From NCBI RefSeq assembly GCF_964204645.1, contig NC_134030.1, positions 2,891,855 to 2,955,854 of the forward strand: a DNA stretch of 64,000 nucleotides, read 5' to 3'. The notes beneath the pieces are model-generated. The model did no database searches, had not been told where the DNA came from, and saw nothing but the letters and a program-made list of their open reading frames with translations. The position numbers were made by a program, and so were the translations under genes. Shown here one piece after another: positions 2,128-60,874 of this stretch. The DNA is from Tubulanus polymorphus (lineage: Eukaryota > Nemertea > Palaeonemertea > Tubulaniformes > Tubulanidae). Each line of letters starts with the position of its first letter. The first letter of the stretch is position 1.

Positions 2128-3338
2128 TCATACCGAGGTCGTATTCCTACCGAAAACGTGATGTTTGCGTCGATCGAATAGTGTTCGTAATGTGTTAATC
2201 ATCATAGCTAAACATCTCAATTTAGACACGAATTTCAACGCTAACGCGCATGTTATGATAACTAAAACAACGATTACAAATAAACTCCACGAATATCGAC
2301 TTTCGGGAACTTTCTTGGTATCGATGATTTTAGTGGCTGGGCGAGTACGACAATCCAGTGACGTATTGTGCATTTCTGTCCACAGACTACGGAAGGTTTT
2401 GTCCGGAATTTCGGCGTAGGTGATAATTTTGCGCCACAAACACGGATGTGGAACCGCGTGCGAGTGGAACTGCTCGCTGCCGACTAGATTAGCGTTTATC
2501 TGTAGTCGAACGATTCCCGTCACGAAAACGTCTTCCATCGGAAAGTACGGTAAACTTTTCGCCGTCGAAAATAGTTCCTCGGTGATGTCATTCGAAAACG
2601 TATAACCGTTTCCGGCGCAATAATCCGGATATATATCCGCGCTGAATTCCCGTTTCGAAATGTACCATTTACTGTTGACGTCGCGAACGACCGGGTTGTT
2701 GTGAATACGATGACACAAGAAAAATCGTTTGGTCGCGCGGGACGTTTCGTTAAACGCGCGTAAAAGATTGGGTACATTTACGAATACGTCATCGTCGACT
2801 TTCATGACGTATTTCGCAGATTTCGCGCGCGTCATTACCCAGCGTAGGAACGCCACCGATTTTTCTGTCAATCGCGTATATTTGTCCAACATATCCATCT
2901 GTATGATATCCCGATGGACGGTAATCTCACTGGATATCGACCGCGTTATATCGATTTTATTCGTCTTTCCTAATAAAAACACTAATTTCACTTTAGATCT
3001 ATACGGTCGCTGTTCGAGGTACGTCGCCCACGTTTCTCTTACGAGTTTCCTTTTCGCGAAATTCCCCGGCGCCGAGAACACAACAATAATCAAATCCAAA
3101 TCGTCTTCGTTCATGTCTTTAGTAATCGACATATTGAATAGTTGAGGCGGCGGATTGGCCGTGTTGATTTCGTACGGGTTTGACTTTGATTCGTTTAATG
3201 ATATGACGCTGATTTCGTTTGTGCGATAAACCGTTATATTGCTTCTGGTAGATATGTTAAATGCAATCATTAAACAGGTTAAAAATGCAAAAACGACCAG
3301 CAAAGCTCTTCGACGAAACAGAAACTTCGAGGCCCGAA
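2128..3338 (-). CDS. Beta-1,3-galactosyltransferase-like glycosyltransferase (GT31 family)
   Basis: This is a Golgi type II membrane enzyme predicted to transfer a hexose from a UDP-sugar in a beta-1,3 linkage. Numbering from the first residue shown at 3303, a hydrophobic anchor spans about residues 1-18, followed by a stem and a catalytic domain with the GT31 signatures: KLVRETW near 86-92, the DxD metal/UDP motif as VDDDVFVN at 169-176, YPDYCAGNGY at 225-234, and the MEDV motif at 256-259. Several N-x-S/T sites are present. No ATG opens the frame: the codon at 3303 is TTG, and the frame continues upstream to an acceptor (TTTTCAG) ending at 3339, so at least one 5' exon is missing from my model. 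An unusual feature is a second hydrophobic segment near residues 338-358 followed by a basic tail; most B3GALT enzymes end with the catalytic domain. Family certain, substrate unknown. Confidence 0.86.
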
Positions 3339-5369
3339 CTGAAAATAGAAGATATAAAGTTAATTGCTGCCTAAGAATTATTCAGTTTTCTGTTTCTCTC
3401 AAGGGTCCCCATTTTACTGTAACCTCTCAATAGGGTTTACAATTATTCAACAAATAATCAGAATCAGAATCGATTTCGGATATTCATTGTCAATAAGTAA
3501 CATATGCGGCATATTATTCAGTAGGCTGTCTGGTTTTGTGGTTTCACGCGGGTCTGATATTTTCATGTTGGCGCCCATCCGACTAGAAAATCTAACCATT
3601 TCATATTCTGATAAATGTATGTTTACCGGTGATTTCAGAGAAGAATAGACGGATCCTCATGAGTATTAACCTACCCCAAACTGCCGTGCTTAACCTCTCC
3701 ATATAACGACAAGCGATGCGACGCATTTTAGTATACGTGGACTTACTGTCCCAGCGACAAGCATATGTTCACCGGGCGACGTAGGCTGTTTGCTTATCGC
3801 GTCGTACATTGTACCGGCTAAACATACGCAACGTATATTTGACCACGGACGTATAAACTAGTTCACGATATGACGGGCGATGCCCTTTATTCATTAAGCC
3901 CAACGTCCACCTCGTAAACAGGATACAGACATGTTTCCCTCACGTGCGTTTACGAGATTTCGGGGAAAACAACGTTTACGAGATCAAACACGTTTGATTC
4001 CGCGTGTTCATGTGCGTGTTGTGCGTTGGGCTTTTGGACGAGTGTAGTTTTCAGTTGCCGTTTGAGAATACATTAGTTATCCCGGATCGCAAACTCTATA
4101 TCGACCGCACGCTATTATCAGGTTTACAGGATAAGATAGAGCGTATTTTCGTCGTAACGAACGCTTATTCCTGAATCGGCAGTACCAATCGAATCCGAAA
4201 GAGATTTGCCGAGTGCGATCAAAGAACTGAAATATTTCGACGAGTAAATTTTTGATTCCCACGGCTGCGAAATCAGAACTTTCACGAGAAAATCAGAAAT
4301 TACTTTTCTTGCGTGTTGTAAATGTTTTGTGCGCAGGTTTACATTACGTGTAGGTAATAATTACATACACGCGTCCAAGATACTTTTGAATCGTATAATC
4401 AAGAGATTTGTTATATCTTTAATACTTACGGGTCTCTCGTGTCCACACTGCCATCTTTATCTTGACACTATCCTGTAGACCTATCACTTATGTATATACC
4501 GTCATTCGGTCATTTATTATATGGAACGGCTATAGTAGTGACCAAAATGCTCATGTGTGTGCACACTTTTCACTTGTGCTGACGAGTGGTTCCCGTCTGG
4601 ACAGGCCGAAAATCCACAAAGAATCGTCCGGTAATAACAGGGCCATACGCTACCTTGATTTCGTGACGGTTTAAGAAACGTTAATTCGTCAAACAGTGAC
4701 GTTGCTCACGACAAATAGAGGAACAGTCCTTGTAGCGACACAAAAAGGCACTTTTTGAAATTCCATAAAAAATTCTTGTTTAAATTTCATTTCATTTCAT
4801 TTTTGTTGTTCCACAAAAACATGTTTTGCACAGAACATTCATACATTTCATTTTAACAGTGGATAGTATTGTACAGCGAAGCAAATCGTTGACAAGTTTA
4901 CGTAAAGAGACACATATACATGTACGCTGGATAAATATTACGGGGCCTCGTTTACGCACCCCCAACTAATTTACAAAAGTTACTCAGTTTTACCGCCAGC
5001 TTGTGCGTATTGAAAAGTTCCCCCAGGTTTTCTATTGTTGGTACCCCCCCCCCCCCCAATAGTAACGCGAGAAAAGGCGCGCTCTTTCATTCGCATATAC
5101 AGGGCATTCTAAAATGGCATGTCTTTCATCCCCCAGGGTTTGGGTGTTACACTTCATACATCATAGGGTTCCTTCATCCAGATATGCTCGGTAAATTGCG
5201 TTGTACATTCTACTAGACAAAGTGGATCCATTCTTCATCACCAGACCTGCCCAAAATTTAACCATACGTGCCTTAATTTCTTCTTCTAGAGGGGGGCTCC
5301 TATTATCTAAACTCTTTATTATTTACACGTAGGGCTAGGGGCTTGTTACATTACTCGACGGAATTTCTT
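3339..5369. other. Spacer or 5' intron region of the GT31 gene; no coding exon recognised
   Basis: The first exon of the GT31 gene should lie on the minus strand somewhere here or beyond, but I could not identify it. The stretch holds short open frames without family features, a C-tract at 5047-5057, and at 3846-3860 the motif GGACGTATAAACTAG, which recurs in the hairpin at 50825-50868. Confidence 0.4.
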
Positions 5370-28699: not shown

Positions 28700-30475
28700 T
28701 TGATTAGATTGGTCAATTATTCTGTGGACCATGTTGTTTTGTGCGAAAAATATCCATGTTACTTTGTAACCGCATGGGCGATTGAGAGCTGAATATTATT
28801 TGTATTACGCAGATTATTGTAATTACTGCCAAACACACAAAACTAAATGCGTGTTTTCAGAAGCTGTAATTATAGATGATTGCTGAAGTTCATAGTTCAG
28901 CTTCGTATTTACTGATGTCCAATATTTCATACTGATTGCAAACAAAATACTTCAATCTATACAATTAGAATAACCACAATCTGACGTGTAGAATAGAGTA
29001 CAAATTGTATAAACAGTAAATAAAAAAACACGTCGGCGTTTTCAATTTTTATCAGAGACAAATTGCGACTAGTACTGATATCAAATCCTGCTTTGGGATT
29101 TCACTTACCAAAAAGCAGGAACGGATCTCGGGAAATGAAAGGCGGGGCTAAAAGAAAAGGTAGGATGTTCCTTGGATAGAACAGCTATAACGAAGGCTGT
29201 CGTGAGTGGGGTTACATCATCAGGATTAGATTTTCTTTTCAAGAAGAAATACGTCTGAAAAGATGCGATTCTGAAGGACATAATCATCTGAAGATTACTA
29301 CCCAAGAAATACATACAACCTTCAATGACAACACTCCATATAACATAAAATCTCACAATACATATTTTTATAGCCATCTCCGGGAAGATGACTATAACTA
29401 TGTGACTCTAATGTGTTCGATCTATTATATTGCATAAATGACGTAATATTTAAACCTGATACTCGTACCAACAATTAAAACCATTTTCCGTAGAGACAAG
29501 TGTAGTAAAAATGAAAAAATAACACCCATATACTGAAATACACGCAAAGAAAACAGCGCCGAATCTCGGAATGACAATACACGCACTGCAGTTAAAGTGC
29601 CATAGGAAAAAAACTAGGCAAGATATCTTAAAATTTCAAAGTTCACCTGAAAGGGGGCATTTATGCGCACAGTTCTTGAAATGCTTGGATTTTGTAGAAA
29701 ATCATTTCTGAAAATAACGAACTTCAAAGTTCAGTACCCTTGATTTTTATGCGCACGGCAAAAACTGACCGCCAATTTTTATATCGCTCTCATGTCGCAT
29801 TGTTGCAAATTTGAGAAATGATTTTTACATAACTGAAAACTAGAGATTCACGCGGTTTGAATGTTGCTGAAACTGTCAAAATCCATCCATGGACAGATGA
29901 AATATGATACAACACACATCACGGATAGTTTTTAAAAAATAGAAAAAACCCAACAATACGGGACAAAAGTACCCTAACAAAATGGCGGCTAGCAACTGTA
30001 AAATGGTTTATTGAAAAATTCTATATCAGAATGATTGTATTTGAGGAGCGACGTTTCGGCTAATAACTGCCATCATCAGGCGTACTGCCCGATGATGGCT
30101 AACAGTTGTTAGCCGAAGCGTCGCTCCTCAAATACAATCATTCTGATATAGAATTTTTTTTTTTGGCTTTGTGATTGTGGGATTTCTCTCGTCATCTTCA
30201 TACGCGGATATTGTGTATCTTCTCGTCTAATATGTGGCTGGCTATATTGAACGATTTTCAAAACTGTCTGGTGCAAATATCTGCATTTATTTGCAGAACG
30301 AAGCAGTGAATGTTGTCGGCTCATCGGAGTTCAATGTTTTAATCATATTTCACTTAAACTCTACTGAATGATTTAGCAAATAAACGCAATAATCAATTAA
30401 TAATCTACACAGTGAAGGGGTAGAAACGTCTCGCAGTACCTCTTTATCCTGTAGTCGGACAGTAATTCTTCAACG
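28700..30475. other. Spacer between the secreted pair and the five-gene family
   Basis: I see no supported gene. Open frames here (for example on the minus strand at 29105-29377) lack domains and splice context. The snapback repeat at 30015-30155 is the only structure. Confidence 0.45.
30015..30155. mobile_element. Second snapback family, with hammerhead-like core
   Basis: Arms of about 64 bp (AAATTCTATATCAGAATGAT..., starting near 30015) face each other around the loop AGGCGTACTGCCC. A solo arm is present at about 5715-5790. On the minus strand the left arm reads CTGATGATGGC, a short spacer, then GCCGAAAC: the CUGAUGA and GAAA boxes of a hammerhead ribozyme flanking a GGC/GCC stem. There is one extra U after CUGAUGA, and the right arm has CCGATGA and GAAGC instead, so activity is doubtful. 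Confidence 0.6.
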
Positions 30476-32632
30476 ATGCAGTCTAGCTTTAAACGATATA
30501 TCTCGTTGTTTTTAAAGTCGCTGTTATTTGGCGGTAAGTACTTAAATATTCCGCGAATTGATAATACATTAATTGTTAAAAAAAATATTTTCAAGGGAGG
30601 AAAGGAATGAATTTGAATTTTCTAACTTATTCAAAAATTTCCATCGGCGGATCTTTTGGAAATATCTGCTAAATCCAATGAAATTCACTGAAAAATCCTT
30701 CTATTTTCCTGATTCACAAATCGATAGATGCGACAGCCTGGTCAGACTGGTTATACTGGTTAGACTGGCCGACGATCAATCTAATTCAATAAAGAGGTTC
30801 CCAGTTTCTAGGCGCCATTTTGTGGCGGTCCCTCGAGGTCCCTATTGTTGCGATAATTTGCGCTCATTTTTGAATCATAAGTTTTGATTGAATATCATAT
30901 AGCTCTGCAGTCCCTTGCTTGATCAACTTAATTTATAGACCGTTTTAAAGGAAATGAAATGCAGATATTTGCCGGTGATGCTTGGATTTTTTGAACGCAA
31001 CAATTAAGAGCAGTGATGTCAATGATTACGTTATCCAGAATAAATTTATTGATCCTGATCTTGGTATCATATTATCTTATTATGTTATTAAGTTTCGATA
31101 ATATTAGGCGATATAGAAGTTTACTTTTCATCGAGGCATCAAAAAACTTTCAAGCTAAAGTTATTCTTGTTTAGGGATTCTCGGTAGAAACGCTGTTTGT
31201 CCGTCGAATATAAACACGAGTGGTTCCGACAACACCGCAGCAATTCACGATACGAGACCTTACAAATGTCGGCGTTTGATTTTCCCGAATAACCAGTTCG
31301 CTTGCGACGGTGAAATCACTATGTGGCAATATGCGATCTATGAAGCAAATAATCCGGTGAATCTGTACGGGAGCGTGTGGAGAAAATTAACAGATAATTT
31401 ATACAAACACATAGGAAGCAATCATTTACCGGGTAGAACAGTAACGGGTCAGGTGAACTTTACTGTGCCTAAAACTGATCGTATTCAATTTCTGACCGGA
31501 GATGTTTTAGGATTTCATTGCGAATCACATCCCGTTAATTCATTCTTGAGGTTAACATCACGTTCCTCGCCATTACCCGGTGATCGCGATGCACTGGGCT
31601 ATTCGCTGATATTCCATAGATCATACGTATTCAACGGTGATGAAAATCGTTTCAGCATCACCGTCACTGAACCTGCCCCGAGCAGACGATATCGATATTT
31701 CAATATACGAGCATATGTCAAAGGTAAGTAGATTCAGGCTCGGGTACCCGAAGGTGGTTAAACACGTAACCGTTTGGTAAATCAATAACCAACGGTTAAC
31801 CACTTAAAGAAATAATCCTATCAAGCAGGACCCAGTCCCACAGTTCTGAGCTAGATTTCATTTTACTACGTTAAAAATGAGCTGATTTTAACTCAATCTA
31901 ATTGTGGAACTGGATATAAAACTCCCGAATTAAGTTAAAGAAATAGAAATTGCAGAATAGTTTGTTTTCTTTGAAGAGTATTAACATTTTGCAGATTCGG
32001 TTATAGAGCGCTGCTGAAATCAATCATTATAGAAAAGTTTCATATCAAAATTTGCCGGAAACATTTACATTTCAGCTAAAAATGAAGCATTTTTGTAGTA
32101 TTTAGTTGTTGTTGCTGTTGCTTTGTAACGTAATAATCAGTAAGAATCCGTAATTGCTATCGATTATAAAAATGGTAAGTATTAACTTTTCAATTTCAAT
32201 TAGATATTTAAAAGCAGTGATTGGTCAGACTTCGCACTACAACTATAAACAGTGACTTCTAGATGAAGATTGATACCTGTAGGTAGTCATCCCTCGGTTC
32301 AGAGGCGATGGTGCTGTACGTTCAATTTTATATCTTAAGATTCGTGCGTTTACATAGCGAAAAAAGATGTGAGAACTGGTGGTACATTGAACGTTAACTT
32401 TATTTCAATTATACTAGCTTTATCTGGTGAATTCGCATCGGTTGAAGCCAATATATGCGCACTCGGCCGCCGATCGGATAACTACATCTGTACTTTCGAT
32501 TTCCGGTTTCAAAATCAAACCAACTGTTTCGCTCCCAACAGGGTCAATCCCTACTTAAGATCAATTGCGAAAGCTAGTATTTCGGATAGAAATAAAGTTG
32601 ATGTTCAAAGTATTATCTTTCATCGCGTTTAA
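30476..32632 (+). CDS. Secreted single-domain protein, family member 1 (273 aa)
   Basis: Three exons in phase: 30476-30533 (signal peptide, GTAAGT donor), 31175-31723 (the domain) and 32418-32632 (C-terminal exon ending TAA). The domain starts with a Cys (VCPSN) and carries the family core: FPNNQFACDGEITMWQY, YGSVWRKLTDN, HIGSNHLPG, and the closing VPKTDRIQFLTGDVLGFHC. I cannot match it to a named family with certainty; similar W-x-Y...GDVxGF architecture is found in extracellular proteins of molluscs as I recall, which is not proof. The third exon adds about 70 residues with three cysteines and several N-glycosylation sites, and is not seen in the other members. Predicted to be secreted; role unknown. 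Confidence 0.78.
31831..31914. mobile_element. Hairpin element (CCCAGTCCCACAG...ATTGTGGAACTGG)
   Basis: Another member of the short hairpin family, in intron 2 of secreted family member 1. A degraded copy may lie at 32838-32912 (AACTACAGTTGAG ... TGTGGAACTG). Confidence 0.5.
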
Positions 32633-33294
32633 AAAAAACTTAAGGTGTAGCCCCGCAACAAACTGTTGCATTCACTTTTCGTCCATTGGCTGTCCTTAAC
32701 ATCCAGTTATTTTTGGAAGTTTTGAAGACGCTTTAATAGAGCGTGGCATAGTGTCCCTGGACCACTAGTTGTTCTAATAGTTACTAAACATGTTTATCAT
32801 TGGGATTATTTGATGATTAATGATTTAATTAACCACCGGAAACTACAGTTGAGAATTAGAGTTAACTTCGAGTTAAATCATAACTTGCAGAGCAGTGTGG
32901 AACTGATTAACGACTCCTTCCTCTCATACAGCTAAAACAACGAGTGAAACGAGCTGAAACTTATACATTGCTAAACTTGTCTGTCAAGCGACGAATGTAT
33001 CAATTTATATTTATCCTTATTGAAAATGATGATTATCTAATTTGCGCCTGGTTTGAATTGGAATCCATTGCCGCAAATCGCTACTAAATGATTCAACAGA
33101 TGAAAATACACCACGAACAATTCATTCGTTCGAAATCAATCGTTTCAAATGAGTTGAATGACGACGATAAGGATGTAATACCTTTGCCGCTATCGAAATA
33201 TCAAAAACCTGCTGAACGAATTAATGAGATAAAACAGAATAGTCACAGAAGTTTGAACCACTCGTCCTGAGATCGGGCTATCATTTCGTCAACG

Positions 33295-34263
33295 ATGCGT
33301 CTTGGTTTTATACGAAATATCCCGTGGCTGTTTTTTGTGTCTCTGGTGATATTCGAAGGTACGTGAAATAAATCAAAACTAGTCAATGCGGTTACTTTGA
33401 AATGATTGGAAATTTTCCCCCTTCCCGCCATTTGTAATTTTGTAAATTTGAATGTGTGAATGTGTGCATGCTCGATGAGTATACGTGTTGTGACCGCGTG
33501 TGAGGGATGGATGTCTCATACCCGACAAGCAACCTTGCTTTAAATGAGCACCTACCACTGATATTGGAACATCCTTTATAAATATAAAATTTGTTACAAT
33601 TACTTGTGGAAATAAAATATTATTATTATATAAGTTATGTATTACTTTCATATACGAATTTCAAATGAGATACAACGTTATATGACCGATATCTTCATTT
33701 CTCAGAGGTTTTTGGCAGTGGAAATGATGTTTGTCCCTTGAATATTGACCTGAGTGGTACCGACAACATCGGACTAGAGCAGAGATACTACTCGTGCCGT
33801 ATTCTGATTTTTCCGAATAACCAGTTCACTTGCGACGGTGAAATAACTATGTGGCAATATGCGATCTATGAAGCAGAGAATCCGGTGAATCTGTACGGGA
33901 GCGTGTGGAGAAAATTAACAGATAATTCATTCAAACACATCGGAAGCAATCATTTACCGGGTAGAAATGTAACGGCGGGTCAGGTGAACTTTACTGTGCC
34001 TAAAACTGATCGTATTCAATTTCTGACCGGAGATGTTTTAGGATTTCATTGTGATTCTTATGACGGAAAATCATTCATTAAATTCAAACGTTCTTCAACA
34101 CCACTACCCGATGATGGGGCTATGGGTTACACGTTGTACTTCAAGGACTCATACCAATTTAGCGTTGATAGCGGAACATTCAAGAGTGGAACTTTATACA
34201 ACTTTTCTGTATCGTCTTCAAAAGGCCGGTACCGATATTTCGACTTTCGGGCATCTATAGTAG
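33295..34263 (+). CDS. Secreted single-domain protein, family member 2 (3' end unresolved)
   Basis: Exon 1 (33295-33358) encodes a signal peptide, MRLGFIRNIPWLFFVSLVIF. Exon 2 (33706-34263) encodes the domain of about 185 residues: NDVCPLNIDLSG, then CRILIFPNNQFTCDGEITMW, and ending RYRYFDFRASIVG before GTAAGT. The last coding exon must start in phase with G|xx. One candidate begins near 34871 and would add about 28 residues, but its acceptor is weak. The upstream 60 bases share AATAGTCACAGAAG with member 3, so the 5' UTR was duplicated too. Confidence 0.75.
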
Positions 34264-34560
34264 GTAAGTCGATATTCTGATAATAGTTTTTCAAGATAAC
34301 TTATAATCTACAAGCGACAGGATTCCATGCACGGTAAGAACATCATTACTTTTCTATCGTTATTCCTAAATATACAAATCAAAACCAAGGCTAAAAATGA
34401 TAAAATGATACCTTGATCTTAAAGTTTTTTGATTTGATTTGAACACTTTATTTTTCAAATATAATTTACAGCATAGTGTACAAAGCATAATACAAAATAC
34501 AGTAAATTAGACGTGGAGGGGCCTGTAGAAACTAAGGAATAGTTTGTATAAAACAGGTCC

Positions 34561-34830
34561 CTCAAAAGAGAAAAGCAAAAAGAAGAAAAAAAAAAAAAAA
34601 AAAGAAAAAAGAAAAAAAAAAAGAAAAAAGAAAAAAAAAGAAAAAAAAGTTGACCCGGCCGGCCGCATATCTACCGTCTACATTACTTTTCTAAAAAAGT
34701 CACGATCAAGCTAACAATAACAGATCCGGCAGCTATAGAAATAAACTGATTACATATTCCATCAGAGTTTACAGAAATGGCCCAGCCGATTAGGAGAAAC
34801 AAGGTATCATTTTATTTTAGCCCAAACTGC
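34561..34830. repeat. A/G-rich low-complexity tract followed by a dispersed repeat
   Basis: 34584-34648 is almost purely A with scattered G. From 34649 on, GTTGACCCGGCCGGCCGC and the next 170 bases repeat the sequence at 5579-5700 and 5935-5960. The A tract at the boundary may be the poly(A) of a retroposed copy on the minus or plus strand; orientation is not certain. Confidence 0.55.
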
Positions 34831-35483
34831 AGAAAAATTTGAGATTAAAAGATGGAAATCTCGCGTGAGGATATTCGTTCAAGACGAAAGATGCAGCAGG
34901 ATCGGATTTGCAGGTATGGAAAGATGATAATGTAATATCGATGGTGGGATGAGATACATTTCACAGCTGTAACACGGGGACAACCAAAACCTTAATCCAG
35001 TTCCGCAAGTGTCTGGTTCACGGAACCCCGCACTGTGCGCACTGCGCGATACCGGTACCGTTGATGCCCAGGGGCCAGGTTTATAGACTGGTATCAACTT
35101 TAACCTGGGGGTTAATTCAATTCATTTTTAATTGAGTTAACCCCTGGCTCAAAGTTACCTCGCGTTCGGGTGAAAATCGTGGTGGAATTCGAGATGTTTA
35201 TATACAAATTGAAATTGAAATTCAATAAAGTGCGGTCTGATAGCGAACGCAATTTGCTATGAATGATTCAACGAATAAATACAAGGAAGATCAATTTGTT
35301 CAATATCTATCGTTTCAAATAAATACGAAATGATACATAAACGGACGGGAAGAATGTTACGCTTGCGCTTAGCTGCAGTCGGTCATCTTCGGAAATCTGA
35401 AATATTCATATCTCGTCGAACATAGCGGAATAGTCACAGAAGTCTGAACCAGTCGTCTTGGTCGGACAGCTATTTCAGCAACG

Positions 35484-36216
35484 ATGCGTCGTGGTTTTAT
35501 TGGAAATATCTCGTGGCCGTTTTTTGTGTTGCTGATGATATTCAAAGGTACGAAATGCGTTAATATGAAGTAGTTGAAAAATATGTATTCGTTTGATATG
35601 AATCTGATTTATATCTACCATATGGAAGTTGATGAAATGAATGATGATGAATGATATTCATATTTCGCAGGGGTTTTTAGCAGTGGAGATGATGATTGCC
35701 CGTTGAATATGGACCTGAGTGGTACCAAAAACACCACCGGACTAGATGAGAAATCGTATGGATGTCAACTATCGATTTTCCCGAATAACCAGTTCACTTG
35801 CGACGGTGAAATCACTATGTGGCAATATACGATCTATGAAGCAGAGAATCCGGTGAAACTGTACGGGAGCGTGTGGAGAAAATTAACAGATAATTCATAC
35901 AAACACATCGGAAGCAATCATTTACCGGGTAGAAATGTAACGGCGGGTCAGGTGAACTTTACTGTGCCTAAAACTGATCGTATTCAATTTCTGACCGGAG
36001 ACGTTTTAGGAATTCATTGTGAGGCTCATGGTGGAAGTACATTCATGAAGTATAAATGTTCTTCAACACCCGATGATGGGGCTATGGGTTTTACGTTACT
36101 CTTCAAGGACTCATACCAATTTAACGGCAGCAGCTTCGACCGAAATTCATACGTGTTTAAGACACCGGCCTTAGTAAGCCGATACAGATATCACAAAATA
36201 CAGGCATCTTTCATAG
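35484..36216 (+). CDS. Secreted single-domain protein, family member 3 (3' end unresolved)
   Basis: Exon 1 (35484-35547) encodes MRRGFIGNISWPFFVLLMIF, a signal peptide one or two changes from that of member 2; exon 2 (35671-36216) encodes the domain. It is the closest relative of member 2, and flanking sequence on both sides is alignable (for example the 3' segments at 34856-34910 and 36440-36520), so 33.1-35.2 kb and 35.2-36.8 kb are a tandem duplicate pair. The final segment (KYKCSSTPDDGAMGFTLLF...) differs from member 2 in several codons and lengths. The terminal coding exon is probably short; one acceptor near 36478 would add only three residues before a stop. Confidence 0.75.
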
Positions 36217-36824
36217 GTAAGTCGAAATTCTGAAATATTATCAATTAATATGAATGAATGAATTCATTTTGCATTTCAACATAAATAGTTTTCAAGATGA
36301 TATATGATATATCTAAAAGCGACTGGATTCGATGAACGGGATGAATAAGTAAGTAGGCAGAAAATGTTTCTATCGTAACTCGTAAACATGAAAAGCGTAA
36401 TTAAACTCCACGGAATGTAAGTTATAAGGTTCACAGGTTGCGCGCGAGTTTTTGGAAATCTCACTCGCGTCAGGAATCCGTTGAAGACGGACGATGCAGT
36501 AAACAAATCACGTTTTGCAGGTAAGAGACATAATACATAGAATAGCCAATTTTGAAATAAAATAACTAGTGCAGTTTCACTGACATTTTGAATTATTTCC
36601 TTCAATCTTATAATCTTCATATAGTATCCCTTTTATACATATTTCAGACTGTTGTTGCTCTCCATCGATTTTGAAGAAATATTATCATGAAATGTCTCGA
36701 TGAGATGCCATATGCGTTTAGCCGTGACACGAGGAAAACTAAAACCTGTTTGGTTGGGTAAAAATCTTGGTGAAATTCGAGGCGTGTCGGTCTACCTCAC
36801 TCGGTATCGCTCGGACTGTAAAAA

Positions 36825-36998
36825 CAGCGAAACCTCGTTACAATGAACTCGGACACAACGATTCATCGGATATAACAAATATGGAATTTCGAAAATGAGA
36901 AAATTAATTGATTGATTTCACACTGGATATAACGAACTATCGGTAATAACGAACAGATTTTCTGGTCCCATGAAGTTCGTTGTAACGAGGTCCCACTG
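36825..36998. mobile_element. Pogo/Tigger-type MITE (174 bp)
   Basis: The left end CAGCGAAACCTCGTTACAA and the right end (complement of CAGTGGGACCTCGTTACAA) are inverted, differ at two or three sites, and continue with TAACGAAC-type repeats, typical of pogo/Tigger elements. A TA follows the right end; the left TA is not intact. There is no transposase, so it is non-autonomous. Confidence 0.7.
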
Positions 36999-38119
36999 TA
37001 TTTCACATGTTTTTTCCCAAATGTGATCCATCTCGTTTTTGAAACGACTAATGGATATTTCCCAAGGGACGCATTCGTTACAGGTCGATTAATATTTTGA
37101 CGCCTATCGACACGATTTCCATGATGAATATCATATTACGTTACAGTCTAAATCATTTTCATTGCGCAACTATATGAATGATTGATATCAGTAATTGCTT
37201 CATGACAGAGCTTAATTGTTTTAACAATAAATTCGCTATTTTAATCATGGAAATATTTTTTGTCGATTTTTCGCGTATCGGATTAGAATGGGGTACGCGC
37301 AGTGCTACTGTGGCAATCGAGGATTCCACTCACGGCAGGCGAGGATCCGCCAGGTTCGCTAGTAGATAGTTGGTCGTCCGCATTCGATTTCCTTTTACGT
37401 TTCAGTTGAATCTGAATGAACTTTTCTCTTAAATGAATCAATTATTTATGAAAACTAAACCGATATCTGAGTAGGAGGATGAAAGTATTGTATATCTAGT
37501 GAGTCCTGTGATAATATATGGATTCAGGAGTCTAAAAATCAAGTTCAAAGTTCATTGAAAATGAACTTATTTTGACAACGAGCAACCTACTGCTTGTCGC
37601 GCCATCTAACGGGGTAGCTTGTTTAGCGGGTACCCCATTGTTACTTATTTTGATAACATCTGCAACAATCAACTTTGTAACGATGCAGGTTTTCCACGGA
37701 CGGGCCAACATTTCATCATACTGAATACGGTTTTGATGGAAATGTATTTTGCTGGGTAGAAAGATTTGAGTGTTGAGATATGTATACCTACCAGACGTGT
37801 CACATAAGACAAAACTAAAGGAAATTGGAGCAAGCATTAAACTGAAACAATCTTTTTGAATCTACCCTAGTAATGATAATACCCTACCTTTAACCTCATC
37901 TTACCTTCATTTTCGTGGTACACATGCACATCAGGTATAAGGTTTCTTTTTGTTCTAAATACTCACTAACCGTAATATACGATTACTCACGACTTGTAAC
38001 ATCAATAAATGTGAATTGGACATATTTTAAGATAGAATATTGAATCGATAAAAATTGAACTTTGAGATTTATTTGTCCTCGGATGATGAGTTGGGCAATT
38101 AAAGATGTCACCAACCTAC
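36999..38119. other. Spacer or 3' part of family member 4; no exon recognised
   Basis: Member 4 (minus strand) ends exon 2 at 38120 with a GTAGGT donor, so its terminal exon should lie in this stretch. I could not choose among short candidates. 37321-37360 carries GCGAGGATCCGCCAGG, a short word also found at 17930-17950. Confidence 0.35.
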
Positions 38120-38819
38120 CTTTTAAACTAATTGTCCGCAATCGAAAATATCGATACCGGTTTATTGAATTAGATTCTTTAAAAATGTATGATTTTCGGT
38201 CGAATGCGCTGTCGAATTGGTACAGTTCCTTGAATCTCTCCGTGTAGCCCGATTCTTTGCGATCACCGGATAATGGCGAGGAACCAGATGTAAACTTCAT
38301 GAATGTATTGCCACCATGAGCCTCACAATGAATTCCTAAAACATCTCCACTCAAATACCGAATACGATCAGTTTTAGGCACAGTAAAGTTCACCTGACCC
38401 GTTACATTTCTACCCGGTAAATGATTGCTTCCGATGTGTTTGTATAAATTATCTGTTAATTTTCTCCACACGCTCCCGTACAGTTTCACCGGATTCTCTG
38501 CTTCATAGATCGTATATTGCCACATAGTTATTTCACCGTCGCAAGTGAAATGGTTATTCGGAAATATCAGTATATGACATCCGTAATATTTCTTCTCTTG
38601 TGCCGCGGAGTAGCCACCAAGGTCAACATTCGACGGGCAAACATCATCTCCAGCGACAACTCCTGAAAACATCAATATTTCCTCAAAATCATTAGATCCC
38701 AACATAATTGAAAATCGAAGTTCATATCATACTTATTTCCCAATCACTGTTTGTAACTATTTTTACATACCTTCAAATATCAGAAATGCGAGAAGCCACG
38801 ATATTAAAACAAGACGCAT
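38120..38819 (-). CDS. Secreted single-domain protein, family member 4 (inverted; 3' end unresolved)
   Basis: Exon 1 (38771-38819) encodes the short signal peptide MRLVLISWLLAFLIF; exon 2 (38120-38662) starts G|GA and encodes GDDVCPSNVDLGG, then the shared core with the variants FPNNHFTCDGE and DRIRYLSGDVLGIHC. It is the only member on the minus strand. The block from the CDGEITMW codons to VPKTDR is nearly identical in DNA to the plus-strand members, silent sites included, although the parts on either side are quite different. The end RYRYFRLRTISLKG precedes GTAGGT. Confidence 0.77.
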
Positions 38820-38984
38820 CTTTGATGTTAACTGCAGTCCTCTCTGAACAAATGAAGTGACTTCATTTTGACCGTTCTCTAATATCACTGAGCTTTTATA
38901 TTTGCGAATAAATTGACAGTGTGTTGAATCTGCTGAATCATTTAGTAGCGAAGTTCAGTCAATAAAACCTTTTACCTAATTCTA

Positions 38985-39205
38985 CGGAAGCAATAAAGGG
39001 CCTTATTTATGTCGATATATCGCGATATATCGATATATCGACTTTTCGCGAGAAAAATGGTCGAGAAAACGAAATATGTCGTCAAAACGTCACGATATAT
39101 CGACATATTCATGTCGACTTAACGCGATATATCGCGGTATGTCGACATAAATATGGCGACTTGTCGAGTTGGAACGCGACAACTCGAGGCCCTTTATCGC
39201 TTCCG
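38985..39205. mobile_element. TA-flanked MITE with TATCGCGATA palindromes (221 bp)
   Basis: CGGAAGCAATAAAGGGCCT at 38985-39003 is mirrored by AGGCCCTTTATCGCTTCCG at 39187-39205 (one mismatch), and TA precedes and follows the element, fitting a Tc1/mariner-type target duplication. The interior contains several copies of the self-complementary ATATCGCGATAT and repeated TATGTCGACAT-like words, so it can fold almost completely. No coding capacity. It sits 170 bp 5' of family member 4. Confidence 0.8.
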
Positions 39206-39304
39206 TATAATTCAGATATTACATCATATTTTTTGTTTTGATAAACCTGAATCTTTTGAAGGCAGACGATTTGAGAATAGATTAAGCTTTTCCCAAACTA
39301 GATA

Positions 39305-39599
39305 TTAACCCTTTCAGTGCGGACTAATTACTACCCTATAGTGCTGGAGATAATTTGAACATTTTGAAAAATTCCACCCTAGTGTGTTGAATAACGGGAA
39401 TACCACTATAGTGCGTCTACACTGTGGTGCGATGTATCGTTAGTTACTAATATCTCACTATGTTTGACAGGTGCTGCCATTTTTCAAGAGGGATAATTAC
39501 TAATTACTAATGACATCAATACACCATAGTGCGGTGTACAAGCAAATCTATCACTGATTTATACACTGCACTGCAGTGTAGACGCACTGAAAGGGTTAA
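39305..39599. mobile_element. piggyBac-type MITE (TTAA target, 295 bp)
   Basis: TTAACCCTTTCAGTGCG (39305-39321) and its exact reverse complement (39583-39599) bound the element. TTAA at both outer edges and ends reading CCCTTT match piggyBac elements, which insert at TTAA. Internal copies of CACTATAGTGCG and CACCATAGTGCGG form subterminal repeats. No transposase. Confidence 0.85.
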
Positions 39600-39904
39600 G
39601 CAAACAGTGTTGGCGCAACCATAGGTAAATCTAAACAAATATCTTCACTACTAAATGTAAAGAGCCCTATGTCCTTTGTGGATGAGACAATGCAGTTTCA
39701 TCTAATCAGTTTAGACACCACTGCAGATATATCGACGAGCTGTAAATCACAGCCATGGTTAAAATTGAGTAGTTACATTTACGATAAAACGATATTGAAG
39801 TCTAAACTTTTGAAATAAAAACATTCGAGTAAAAATCAATAAAGTACGGACAGGTGAGAATCATACAATGTGCTTATGATTGAGATAGGAAATTTGCCTG
39901 TGGC

Positions 39905-40026
39905 ATCAACGCTCTCTCCCCCAACCCCCCTCTCTCTCTCCCCCTCTCTCTCTCTCTCTCCCTTTCTCTCTCTCTCCCCCTTCCCTCCCCCCTCTCTCTC
40001 TCTCTCTATCCCCCCAACCCCCCCTC
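39905..40026 (+). repeat. CT-rich low-complexity tract
   Basis: Polypyrimidine stretch made of TCTC and CCCC runs, about 120 bp, 370 bp upstream of the GPCR start. Open frames through it are artefacts. Confidence 0.85.
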
Positions 40027-40392
40027 TCTACAAGTCCGATCGAAAAGCGATTAGGATTCTTTCATTCTTCGTCCTATGATTGGGGACAGGTTTTCACATA
40101 ATGATACCATAATAATGATGATAATACAGTGCAGTCAATATTCTAATGGTATTATCAATTTACAAAATCAATTATTTACAATAGTCGCATTTTCAGAGAA
40201 GTTCCATTTAGTGAACTCGGGCGTGAATCACCGAGTTTAGTCCCCGAGGAAATCATTCACAAACGAATAAACGTCGGGTGTGTGTTCTTGGTATCAAAGG
40301 TAAGACCACCGAGCATTTAAAATCGGTGGAATATTTCGAGTTTCAAAACTGTAGGAGCGTCGATAGGTTTCATCAGAGATAGAGAAAACAAA

Positions 40393-41469
40393 ATGATGAA
40401 CGCTTCTTCAAATATCGCCCGATACGTGAATAACTCGTACGTAAAGACTACTACTACGACAGGAGGTGCTGCTGGATTTAGACCGCATCCTCGGTGTAAA
40501 TACATTCACTATTCCGATTATAAACCGTTTCACGTGAATCTCTTTCTGCAAATCACGAATTTCGTCATTTTTAGTATTGCCGTATTCGGCGTTTGCGATA
40601 ATTTGATATCGTTTGTCATACTCAGCAAGGAACGCTCAAGGAACACGAGTATACTATATTTGAGATGTTTGGCCGTTGCTGACATGTTTCAGTGTTTATC
40701 ATATGTTGTTTTTAATTTTCACTACGAGCTCTACAGCCATACTCTGTTACTGGACATGACCGCTGAAATAAACCACGTTATGAAGCGCATGTATTCCTAC
40801 ACTCAAGTAATCAGACCCGTATTTTCAATGATCGGTGATCTGATAACTTTAGTAATCTGCGTAGACAGATACATAGTTGTTTGTTGGCCCTTTAAAGCTG
40901 CTAGAATAATCAGCCTGAAGAAAGGTTACATCTACATGTTTTCTATCATATTAATTTCTGTCGCTGATCAGAGCAAAAACTTCTTTAAATATACTACAAG
41001 GCGTTCACGCAATCCGTGCACTGGATACGAACGGTGGTCTCAAAGACGAACTCCATTTTCTAGAGATACTCATTTGCGATACTACGACGCTTTCGTTCGA
41101 GCTCCAATAATCAACTTCATCCCGACAGTGATAGTGATTATTATAACTATTCGATTAGTTCTCGTTCTGACATCAGCAGAAGCGGCGAGAAAATCAATTT
41201 CCACGAATCAAACTCGTAACGATCGTAGTTTAACTCTGACTTTAGTTGTAATTTCCTGTTTCTTTTTAGTTCGAAAATGTTTTTTTCTATCCGCGGCCGT
41301 CAGGAACTTAATTCTAAACTTAAGTGGTAAATTCGGTAATGACTCGGCCGCGCTCTATTTAAATCCGACTCAACGTATTCTCAATATGGTTATAGCGTCC
41401 GCTAATTTTTTCATATACTGCGCTTCGAGGCGTCAATTTCGTAAACAGTTCAAGACAATTTTCTGCTAA
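40393..41469 (+). CDS. Class A (rhodopsin-like) GPCR, peptide-receptor type, orphan
   Basis: A single-exon receptor of 358 residues. Seven hydrophobic segments can be traced: TM1 about 50-76 with D-N in the GN position, TM2 about 87-106 (LAVAD), TM3 ending in the DRY motif (VDRYIVVCWPF), TM4 about 172-190, TM5 about 222-245 with its proline, TM6 about 270-295, and TM7 ending SANFFIY with an NPxxY variant. The pattern (LAVAD, DRYIVVCWP, NFFIYC) is that of FMRFamide/neuropeptide-like orphan receptors abundant in lophotrochozoans. Oddities: no cysteine at the top of TM3 to pair with the ECL2 cysteine (NPCTGY), no tryptophan in TM4, and no CWxP proline in TM6. It may be a divergent or decaying receptor, though the frame is intact. 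An AATAAA lies at 41720. Confidence 0.82.
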   Translation: MMNASSNIARYVNNSYVKTTTTTGGAAGFRPHPRCKYIHYSDYKPFHVNLFLQITNFVIFSIAVFGVCDNLISFVILSKERSRNTSILYLRCLAVADMFQCLSYVVFNFHYELYSHTLLLDMTAEINHVMKRMYSYTQVIRPVFSMIGDLITLVICVDRYIVVCWPFKAARIISLKKGYIYMFSIILISVADQSKNFFKYTTRRSRNPCTGYERWSQRRTPFSRDTHLRYYDAFVRAPIINFIPTVIVIIITIRLVLVLTSAEAARKSISTNQTRNDRSLTLTLVVISCFFLVRKCFFLSAAVRNLILNLSGKFGNDSAALYLNPTQRILNMVIASANFFIYCASRRQFRKQFKTIFC

Positions 41470-42535
41470 CGACATATCGATTCCAACACGAAATTATGTA
41501 CATAACATATGAAATAAGCCTTGAATCGAAGATAAACCGCACAACGAAAGCGTCACATAATATATCATTTGTAGTTCACACCATGCAGGTGAAATTTCTA
41601 CGGTGACTAAGTACGTTTCATCTTTGAAATCAACATGTTACCGCTTTTTTATTCATCTTAACCTGTATTATCACAGTCTAGGGAAGAAAAATGAGTATTG
41701 ACGTAATTACAAAACAGAAAATAAAAGCATCTGGAAACATTTCAAACTTTATTTACCCATTCTAATTGCATTGGAGCGATCTATTGATAAATTAAGCTAT
41801 TTCTCAAGTTGGATTTTTTAATACATAAAAGTTCCTATGAGGTATTTGTTTTCCCTTTGATCGTTATTGTTAGATATATTTATGAATGAATGAATCTTTT
41901 TTCTTTTTCTAATGTAACACTTTTTTGGGGGTGGTATATCCTACAAGCTATGCTTTTTTATATCTTTCCCTCTGATAAATTATGTCAATTTATACTGAAT
42001 TTGTGCAAAAACATGATAATTTATAAATTGTATATTATTTGTTATAAATTGCTATAATTTTCAGAAAATAAATAAATAATAATAATAATAATAATAATAT
42101 TTGATCCGAAAAATGTCACGCTTTATTTTTTCTGCTTCTAGTGTTTGCTCTTGAAACGTTTTTCAATAATTATCTTCACCCGGTAACTTACTACTGATAT
42201 TTTAAGCCGAGTGTAGGTCGTAGCATAGTGAATACTTCCTGCATTTTCGATCAAATAATATTTTCATATAGATTGGTGCAATGATTGTTCTACTAAAGTA
42301 ACCGTCAAACCAAAATTGGAAACCTATTGCTTGGGTTTTTGTTTCGTTGGTTTTGCAATTGGATTTCGATAGCTCATTTGCTATGTCTCATTTTGTTGCT
42401 ACTAAATCATTCACTAGCTTCTCCTCTCTGCGAACGCTTTCACCAATTTTTTTCACGCATTTGAAATAATAACATATAGCATACAACACAGTCACGTAAA
42501 CCTCTCGAATTGTATAGAAAGTTATTTCCTCAACG
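41470..42535. other. Spacer with AAT microsatellite
   Basis: No gene seen. 42067-42098 is an AAT/ATA repeat. The last 150 bases resemble the 5' flank of the other family members only in the final words before the ATG of member 5 (TCAACGATGC). Confidence 0.45.
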
Positions 42536-44964
42536 ATGCATCTTGGTTTTCGACGAAGAATTAGTTGGTGGCTTCTTGTGTCGCATATATATGAAGGTAT
42601 GTAGTACAAATTACGTATTAAATCTTAAAAGTGCCACCTGTATAATGATGTATACGTAATAGTGCCAGAAATCTCCGGTGCAGAAGGATCAATTTTAATC
42701 TTTATTCATTTCATTGAGATGCAAATGGTCCAATACATTAATATGTAGTGTAAGACCGGTGACATAAAGCCGTTTCACCAGTTCAGGCAGATAAGAGTGC
42801 AAAACCTCAGGAAGATACAGGCACACATTAACAACTAAGTGAATTAAATCGTCCCCGTTAACGCTTATGATGTATCATTATGATTAGAAATCATCTTCCA
42901 AACCAAACGACTCAATTGTCGGGTGTTGCTAGTTGAAATTATATCCAAAAAGCTGATCCGAAAAACTTTTGACTAGGTTGTTTCTGAGGGGTTTATACCG
43001 ACAGGAACTCGACCCGACCTGACGATTTTTAATGATTTCATTGGTCAGAAATGTAAAAATAATGCCAGAGTTTTGCAAGGTCCCTGACAAAACCTTGAAT
43101 TCTAGGTCCGGCCTTAAGTGTATAGTAAACAAAGGGGAACCTCATAATATGTGTAACCGGCTGGTTGTTGTATCGGCAGGTTGGCTGGGGAACTAGCATT
43201 TACACCAAAGGTACAGGATTCCAGCCATCAGGAACAACAAGGCAGTTAGCACGGGACAAAATCGCGTTTGAATCGGAACTGGTTCCGGAAATGACTCACT
43301 GCGCTTTGTTTAAACATTGTTTTGTATCGATTGAGAGGTTTACGTGTGAGCGCACTTTCTAATCCGGCACTGGCCAAATTCAGCTCGGGCCTGATCCGTG
43401 CAAATTTGACCCGGGTCGTTTTCAGTTCGGTCGTTTCTTCATCGACACTATTTTTGCTGGAACATGAAATAACATATACGTAACTAGGGATCTGTAACAA
43501 GCATTGACATCATTATTGGACTGTTGCATGAGTACTTTTTTAGTTTTGAATTCATCAACATCAGCACAAAAAATATGGGGTTTAATATCCTTTAGAACAA
43601 ATGTTCTCAATTTGTATAGATAGCATACGATTTAAGGTCAGGGAAACTCCTCATTCTGTCGTTGTTACGACTGCTAAACTATAATAACTTGCAGTGAAGA
43701 TTTTAATACTTATTATTATAGCCTTTCTATATATATGTTAAATATTTTCTCGTGGAAAATTCTATGAAGTTATTAGATTTTGATCATGACAAATAGACTG
43801 GTAAATGAGTTGAAAATCTGAATATTCTTTTCAGGGAATTTCTCTAGAAATGACGTTTGTCCGTCGAATATAAACCTGGGCTGCACCAACAACTCCGCGG
43901 CGCTAGAGGAGAGAATTTACTACTGTTATCCATTTATTCTGCCGAATAACCAGTTCACTTGCGACGGTGAAATCACTATGTGGCAATATACGATCTATGA
44001 AGCAGAGAATCCGGTGAAACTGTACGGGAGCGTTTGGAGAAAATTAACAGATAATTCATTCAAACACATCGGAAGCAATCATTTACCGGGTAGAAATGTA
44101 ACGGGTCAGGTGAACTTAACTGTGCCTAAAACTGATCGTATTCAATTTCTGACCGGAGACGTTTTAGGGATTCATTGTGAATTTCAATCTTCAAAATCAT
44201 TCATGAAATTTAGATTTGATGATCACGCTGCATTAGGCTATCTGTTAGAGCATAAGGAACCTTTATACCAATTTAACGGTATGCGAAAAAGTTTCAGCCA
44301 GAATCCCCGCAACTTTACGCCAACTCAAGGGAAATTCAGATATCGTTCATTTCAAATAAAGGCATTTTTTAAAGGTAGGTTTGTGAATGAAATTATCAAC
44401 AAAATGAATTTCAGTATTTTCAAAACATAGAATAAATGAATGAAGAAATATTTGTGACACACATCACGTCTGCTAATGCATTATAGATTTTTGTATTGTT
44501 TCTTCCTGTTTTCTGGTTATTCTGCTTAATGTTCAATGCTGGACTAATTGTCTTTTAAAATCAATTTTCATTGTCATTTACGTAAGGTTTCCACGAATGA
44601 TCTAGAATGGTAAGTAACTTTCTATCATACACAAATTCACCAATATTAAGTACGGTTACAAATTAGAACCAGTTCCTCTTTAACAAACCCGTTATTTCGA
44701 AAGGTAGGTAGGATACACAATTTCAAATACCGCGTCAAACTGCTATTGATGGAGAATCAAAAGAATGAACGATTAAAACAACGATTTCAATACAAAGGAA
44801 TTTATTTACAATATTTAGCTCGAGTTTCCCGTAACGTGTAATATCTATACGTCATCTCTTCTTGATCAACGCTTAGTAAAGAAATAAACATCCTATTTTG
44901 AATATGTTTTGTTTTTGTTTATTTTCTTGCAGGAAATCACAACGTCGTAACACGTGTTTATTGA
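42536..44964 (+). CDS. Secreted single-domain protein, family member 5 (210 aa)
   Basis: Three exons in phase: 42536-42596 (signal peptide), 43835-44374 (domain) and 44933-44964 (a strong pyrimidine-rich acceptor, then ten residues and TGA at 44962-44964). The domain opens NDVCPSNINLGC with an extra Cys, continues through FTCDGEITMWQYTIYEAE and LPGRNVTGQVNLTVPKTDR, and closes GDVLGIHCEF. After that the sequence is unlike the other members (SFMKFRFDDHAALGYLLEHK...). Intron 1 is the longest of the family (1238 bp). Its 3' end converges with the acidic-protein gene, whose stop is 200 bp away on the other strand. Confidence 0.8.
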
Positions 44965-59800: not shown

Positions 59801-59884
59801 ATGAAATTCGATACAGAATATTCGACGAATGTTCGCCGTAGTAACCATTGTTAAAACGAGCTCGTGCGGTATGCTAGTAGCGCG

Positions 59885-60874
59885 ATGGTGTTAGTATTCA
59901 ATAATGATTCTGATGCGTTACAGCAATGGCTCGAATCGGCGTCGGCTCCGGTCGCCGCCGCGTTCGTCGAAAAATACATCCGAAATCCGTCGAATATGGC
60001 AAATTTCTGGCTGTATTTCGGTATATTTACGGTGATATTTCCGTTCGGTTTGGTCGGTAATATTCTCACTCTAATAGTGATGTGTACGCCGACGATGCGA
60101 CGTCGTTCGTACTCTGTTTATTTACTGGTTTTGTCGTTATTCGACCTGACGATGGTCGCGTTTAATTCGATCGGTTGGATCAACATCGTATCGATTCTAG
60201 TCACCGGGCCGATTGCCATCACTTTCCGTACTACGTCCAGTTGTATGGCTATCGAGTTCTTCCACGATTTAGGCATCATGGGCGGCTCGTGGTTTATAGT
60301 GATGATATCGTTTGAGCGGTTACTGATAGTTCATTGGCCGATCAAATCTCGTCTTATTTGCTCAGTGAATTCTGCTAGAATCATAGCCGTTTTTGTGACC
60401 GGTTTCAGCGTGGCTTTTTCCATATGGACAGCGACTCGTGTAGACTACTGGTCGGGGTATAGTTGTTATTTTCCGGAGAAAGACCGCGCTTTGGATCACT
60501 ATTTGTCGGTCATCTTCTATTTCTTTGTACCGGTGCCGTTACTGACGATTTTCAATATTTGTATCGTCACGAAAATATTCAGAAGCAAAAATATGGGAAA
60601 CAGCGAGCGAAAGGATGAAAATATAACCAAAGTGACGATCACGATGATGATAGTTTCAACCGTTTTTCTGATTTGTCTTTTGCCGGTGGCTTTCGTCGTG
60701 TCGTTACTGGTCGCGATACCGCACGATCAGCAAGAACAACTCGGGCTGTCTAACGCGATGCAAGTTTGCGAGATAATTCTAGCCGTTAATTATTGCTGTA
60801 ACTTTTATATCTACACAATTACCGGAGGTGAAATCAGACAGGCTGTCGTAAAATTGATTTGCCCTCGACGATAG
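59885..60874 (+). CDS. Class A (rhodopsin-like) GPCR, peptide-receptor type, orphan
   Basis: A single-exon receptor of 329 residues starting at the ATG at 59885 (the frame upstream opens only with GTG). TM1 about 41-66 with GN; TM2 with LSLFD; TM3 with its Cys and ERL in place of DRY (SFERLLIVHWPI); a matching Cys in ECL2 (GYSCYFPE); TM5 with proline (FVPVPLLTIF); TM6 CLLP replacing CWxP; TM7 NYCCNFYIY replacing NPxxY, followed by a basic end. The key disulfide and TM signatures are intact. The HWPI after ERL and N-F-x-x-Y end are typical of lophotrochozoan neuropeptide-receptor-like orphans. Distinct from the receptor at 40393: little shared sequence outside the motifs. Confidence 0.85.
   Translation: MVLVFNNDSDALQQWLESASAPVAAAFVEKYIRNPSNMANFWLYFGIFTVIFPFGLVGNILTLIVMCTPTMRRRSYSVYLLVLSLFDLTMVAFNSIGWINIVSILVTGPIAITFRTTSSCMAIEFFHDLGIMGGSWFIVMISFERLLIVHWPIKSRLICSVNSARIIAVFVTGFSVAFSIWTATRVDYWSGYSCYFPEKDRALDHYLSVIFYFFVPVPLLTIFNICIVTKIFRSKNMGNSERKDENITKVTITMMIVSTVFLICLLPVAFVVSLLVAIPHDQQEQLGLSNAMQVCEIILAVNYCCNFYIYTITGGEIRQAVVKLICPRR

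Follow-up and report, generated by a model that had tools for sequence, protein, structure and literature searches.

Partial gene conversion has been described for mammalian TLR1 and TLR6, where identical codons at conserved residues amount to 96.3% inside the tract versus 56.2% and 64.7% outside, and the limits of the tracts are similar across species (PMC2077338). That case comprises two genes of known function, with tracts of 893-1033 bases, in nine species (PMC2077338). Likewise, specific segments have been homogenised within gene pairs in the concerted evolution of BMP8A/B, DDX19A/B and TUBG1/2; the study required similarity to be retained across one intron or more (PMC2720389), whereas the block described here lies within one exon.

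We analysed a cluster of five neighbouring genes (members 1 to 5, referred to as m1-m5) at positions 30476-44964 of the window, that is, the whole 64,000-nucleotide stretch C6:2891855-2955854 of a genome of 267.8 Mb in 77 contigs, all of which was searched. The best explanation for the pattern found in these genes, which we consider likely, is that the middle of exon 2 has been exchanged by non-crossover interlocus gene conversion among five old tandem paralogues, one of which is inverted. The gene content, with intron-bearing genes and rhodopsin-type receptors, points to an animal. All five genes consist of an ATG-started exon 1 with a GT donor and, after an AG acceptor, an exon 2 whose open frame is entered in the same phase, and the preliminary description of five genes with m4 inverted agrees with these open frames and GT/AG borders. 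Each exon 1 is short and carries a hydrophobic stretch, exon 2 has about 180 codons, and a short last exon is likely (read by eye for m5). The gene models and the hydrophobic N-terminus were judged by eye, without transcripts. The small proteins are probably secreted, a putative assignment based on this N-terminus. The features are as follows.

m1 exon 1: 30476..30533, plus strand; start codon, hydrophobic N-terminus, GT donor; by-eye model
m1 exon 2: 31175..31723, plus strand; homogenised core about 31282-31512
m2 exon 1: 33295..33358, plus strand; by-eye model
m2 exon 2: 33706..34263, plus strand; core about 33810-34043
m3 exon 1: 35484..35547, plus strand; by-eye model
m3 exon 2: 35671..36216, plus strand; core about 35778-36011
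m4 exon 1 (inverted gene): 38771..38819, minus strand; by-eye model
m4 exon 2: 38120..38662, minus strand; core about 38334-38564; six private changes at codon columns 106-109
m5 exon 1: 42536..42596, plus strand; by-eye model
m5 exon 2: 43835..44374, plus strand; core about 43939-44169
m5 proposed short last exon: 44933..44964, plus strand; ends in TGA; in phase; by eye, putative

The core comprises 77-78 codons (about 231 bases). It starts with the F of FPNN (31282 in m1, 33810 in m2, 35778 in m3, 38564 on the minus strand in m4 and 43939 in m5) and ends at GDVLG; the start given for it beforehand was 2-5 bases off. The window also contains a galactosyltransferase gene (2128-3381, minus strand; Pfam PF01762, E 7.9e-46) and, upstream of m1, an inverted repeat at 30014-30158 with 56-base arms that are 96% complementary at a spacing of 33 bases. 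Inside the cluster, we found a CT-rich repeat at about 39900-40030 and, between m4 and m5, an open reading frame for a rhodopsin/Srw-type receptor (40396-41469, plus strand); a second receptor is located at 59855-60874. Downstream of m1, a 97-codon open reading frame at 32339-32632 (plus strand) weakly resembles the m1 flanks and lacks the core. We rejected it as a core-deleted relic because the resemblance is too weak (best shuffle p=0.006 of 10, with seven of the ten above 0.25).

Silent divergence is not uniform along exon 2. By the NG86 method with JC correction, dS across the ten pairs ranges from 0.053 to 0.186 in the core, from 0.427 to 1.059 in the 5′ N-flank and from 0.504 to 1.872 in the 3′ C-flank, the latter compared over 64-70 codons. 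Core dS is below flank dS in every pair, with Fisher p values per pair between 2.7e-10 and 1.3e-4, calculated from rounded counts with sites treated as independent. Pooled dS is 0.101 for the core, 0.631 for the N-flank and 0.844 and 1.265 for the two parts of the C-flank, which places the core about 6 to 13 times below the flanks. Pairwise, the cores differ at 6-17 of 231 aligned bases and are thus near-identical rather than identical. The initial observation of a core alike even at silent positions and in the inverted m4, between diverged ends, was therefore borne out (dS 0.05-0.19 versus 0.43-1.87). A second measure considered only degenerate amino acids that are identical across all five members: a single codon is kept at 55 of 61 such columns in the core versus 5 of 16 in the flanks (1/6 in the N-flank and 4/10 in the C-flank; Fisher p=5e-6). 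At the 5′ side, identity rises sharply, at codon columns 30 to 45 in all ten pairs. Outside exon 2, m2 and m3 align at 76-83% across exon 1 and the DNA upstream of it and look as if they arose by a later duplication, while four of the nine other pairs share just 24-52-base stretches of exon 1 or upstream DNA; introns are mostly not alignable between copies. With the previously given m1 core interval as query, a whole-genome search returned these five places, a count that is a lower bound.

The variants within the core clash with any single tree. The best of the 15 possible trees needs four extra parsimony steps, and simulations without recombination (simple non-codon model, eight settings with 1,000 runs each) gave means of 0.1-0.8 extra steps and reached four in at most 1% of runs (P at most 0.01 in the eight settings); the test draws on only seven informative sites, some of which are amino-acid changes that selection could repeat. 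Private core changes number six in m1, seven in m4 and four in m5, with none in m2 or m3. Six of the seven in m4 fall inside 11 bases, a clustering seen in none of 100,000 random placements in a test made post hoc, after the cluster had been noticed, and resemble what an unconverted island would leave. This cluster adjoins a stretch common to m3 and m4 at codon columns 114-127. In tests of the GENECONV type, performed with our own script and not with the GENECONV program, fragments below 0.05 were found for m2-m3 (p=0.0035), m3-m4 (p=0.0085, the stretch just mentioned), m3-m5 (p=0.0125) and m1-m2 (p=0.032), the other six of the ten pairs lying above 0.05, and only m2-m3 remained after Bonferroni correction. 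The m2-m3 fragment may, as an alternative to conversion, date from the common ancestor of two genes that duplicated recently. Strict longest-run tests gave three of ten pairs below 0.02 and none after correction, and silent-only run tests (19 silent sites, ten pairs) yielded no significant pair.

Taken together, the dS contrast, the one-codon columns and the mosaic variants make gene conversion of the core, as first proposed in the preliminary description, the best-supported reading. The other idea put forward there, that ends were shuffled onto one core, holds at most in part: some pieces are common to particular members (m3-m4 at codon columns 114-127, m2-m3 at 130-156), but the ends are alignable homologues. 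A crossover with the inverted m4 would invert the interval between. Yet m4 has the core in common with the other members, which non-crossover conversion explains better than unequal crossing over does.

In the mechanism that we propose, each exchange would reset the silent sites of the core. Protein constraint on the core would keep the five DNA sequences alike enough to serve as repair templates, and the less constrained ends would have diverged too far for conversion to act on them, so that tracts stop there. Pooled dN/dS is 0.37 for the core versus 0.48-0.62 for the flanks; since the core value is lower by a modest margin only, much of the core identity looks like recent resetting, that is, young sequence.

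We searched domain and structure collections. For the five members, Pfam listed nothing up to an E value of 10. For 22 sequences of the superfamily, Pfam gave weak matches only (best E 0.003, PKD, in 3/22) and NCBIfam none at E 0.01. Sequence searches of the PDB brought nothing below E 0.08. An existing family annotation, named beforehand as a possible counter-argument, was not found, neither Pfam nor NCBIfam giving a match above the curated cut-off. AlphaFold models were poor (mean pLDDT 33.0 and 45.9), with strands and no helix listed, and a Foldseek comparison of the second model (pLDDT 45.9) with the PDB produced nothing at or below E 0.001, the lowest value being 0.13. The names that it returned, TGF-beta propeptide, PNGase F and carbohydrate-binding modules, were not used as fold assignments because the E values are too weak.

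With the m2 core as query, the genome yielded 18 places within an E threshold of 0.01, among them the five members; two further queries added four places each, and a tandem array of seven copies adds seven. By such chained similarity, the domain occurs at about 33 places in the 268 Mb genome, the five members included. The seven-copy array (L020, L027-L031 and L033, at C9:11.68-11.75 Mb) is linked to the core at E 0.03 at best in the m2 search and at 5e-6 in a one-locus search. Within it, L030 and L031 share 98% identity across 9.4 kb; the open frame of L020 bears a long Thr/Pro/Ser repeat. Elsewhere, the open frame of locus L018 also encodes a sushi domain. Two loci 4.2 kb apart, L013 (C3:7377866) and L014 (C3:7382058), have identical 244-codon frames and represent either a recent duplication or an assembly duplicate. 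With regard to four cysteines of the five members, eight of the 22 sequences carry all, six only the first and third, one only the second and fourth and five none, while two do not fit; these sets suggest disulphides 1-3 and 2-4. All seven invariant or near-invariant columns lie within the core, a result favoured by the sampling, as the sequences were found by a core query and several are cut short after the core. As to function, we infer small secreted domains that would bind an extracellular partner and probably contain two disulphides.

The preliminary description likened the family to diversified recognition proteins. On such a reading, selection would push the ends apart and hold the core constant. 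The ends do vary in length and sequence, and between m2 and m3 the values at codon columns 153-180 are pN 0.52 and pS 0.51, compared with 0.09 and 0.23, respectively, at the adjacent columns 130-153. However, flank dN/dS is 0.29-0.89 and below 1 in 20 of 20 pairwise flank comparisons, although single positively selected sites can hide in such averages. A sister array of three tandem paralogues (C9:15.66-15.68 Mb) also speaks against such a role: core pS is 0.17-0.21 and flank pS 0-0.12, and for one of its three pairs the greater likeness of the ends is significant (p=0.002, versus 0.11 and 0.44 for the other two). The superfamily thus does not follow a rule of 'constant core, variable ends', and patchy homogenisation may occur elsewhere in it. 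We regard a recognition role as unlikely. The same holds for a related proposal on this large, putatively extracellular domain family without a Pfam name, in which conversion is itself a device of selection: it would keep a constant scaffold matched between neighbours in direct or inverted orientation, and the ends would evolve as binding surfaces of their own. We doubt it to an equal degree.

Repeated conversion also has to be weighed against a single recent spread of one donor core onto five old genes, now decaying. Such an event would account for the 5′ identity rise within codon columns 30-45 in all pairs, and m2 and m3, free of private core changes, could resemble the donor. It predicts a star tree in which most changes are private, whereas we found clashing shared variants, and the fragment common to m3 and m4 reaches outside the core. 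The two are not cleanly separable from one species, but we judge a single spread somewhat less probable still than the recognition role.

A little less probable again is that the silent sites of the core are held, without conversion, by purifying selection at the nucleotide level (an overlapping frame, RNA structure, splicing signals or codon bias) or by a mutational cold spot. The one codon kept across the five cores at 55 of 61 shared-residue columns is what it would predict, but 3-8 stops interrupt each of the five other frames in all five cores, the RNA fold of the m3 core is ordinary (z-score 0.29), and mosaic variants occur in the core. Moreover, silent codons shared with distant paralogues number 145/379 versus 134 expected, which is near chance, for a sum over 16 of 19 rows that leaves out three repeated loci (L023-L025), in a control whose paralogues are very distant and partly redundant (near-copy rows) and whose usage table comes from the same rows. 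The core pS of 0.17-0.21 in the sister array also argues that the segment is not cold everywhere. A constraint new to this cluster may nonetheless exist, the paralogues being distant. Finally, an assembly artefact of collapsed or chimeric repeats is hardly credible: misassembly does occur where similar copies lie about 2-13 kb from one another, but here 6-17 of 231 bases differ between copies, private variants mark three of the five, most introns cannot be aligned and the frames are intact. The assembly or collapse artefact named beforehand as a counter-result was therefore not borne out, the copies not being identical.

The cluster is a compact case in which, through conversion, one stretch of a protein gives the impression of much stronger conservation than the stretches beside it, and its inverted member provides built-in evidence against crossing over. 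It also warns that paralogues by themselves are not sufficient ground for taking such cores to be functional hot spots. The unnamed domain, with about 33 places in one genome, merits a family model of its own.

Among the described systems, the sea-urchin Sp185/333 (SpTransformer) genes are likewise small and clustered, with repeats in or near the genes (PMC3091723, PMC5103432, PMC5491942). That family has more than 40 genes and is upregulated upon immune challenge (PMC3091723, PMC5103432, PMC5491942), whereas our cluster comprises five genes. In our cluster, amino-acid change does not exceed silent change in the variable parts in any of 20 flank comparisons, taken as averages. In the open-licence PubMed Central literature, we judged no case closer than TLR1/TLR6, either for the domain or as a similar invertebrate example; others may exist. 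As in TLR1/TLR6, we see tandem paralogues with one internal homogenised segment and diverged ends, and conserved residues keep identical codons far more often inside the tract (PMC2077338). Lower silent divergence in the tract, one-codon columns and mosaic variants (seven informative sites) are all found here. Unlike TLR1/TLR6, the cluster has five genes, one of them inverted, a segment of about 231 bases and an unnamed domain, and comes from one genome. Partial interlocus conversion is a process already known from TLR1/TLR6, and the five-gene cluster is a likely further instance of it.
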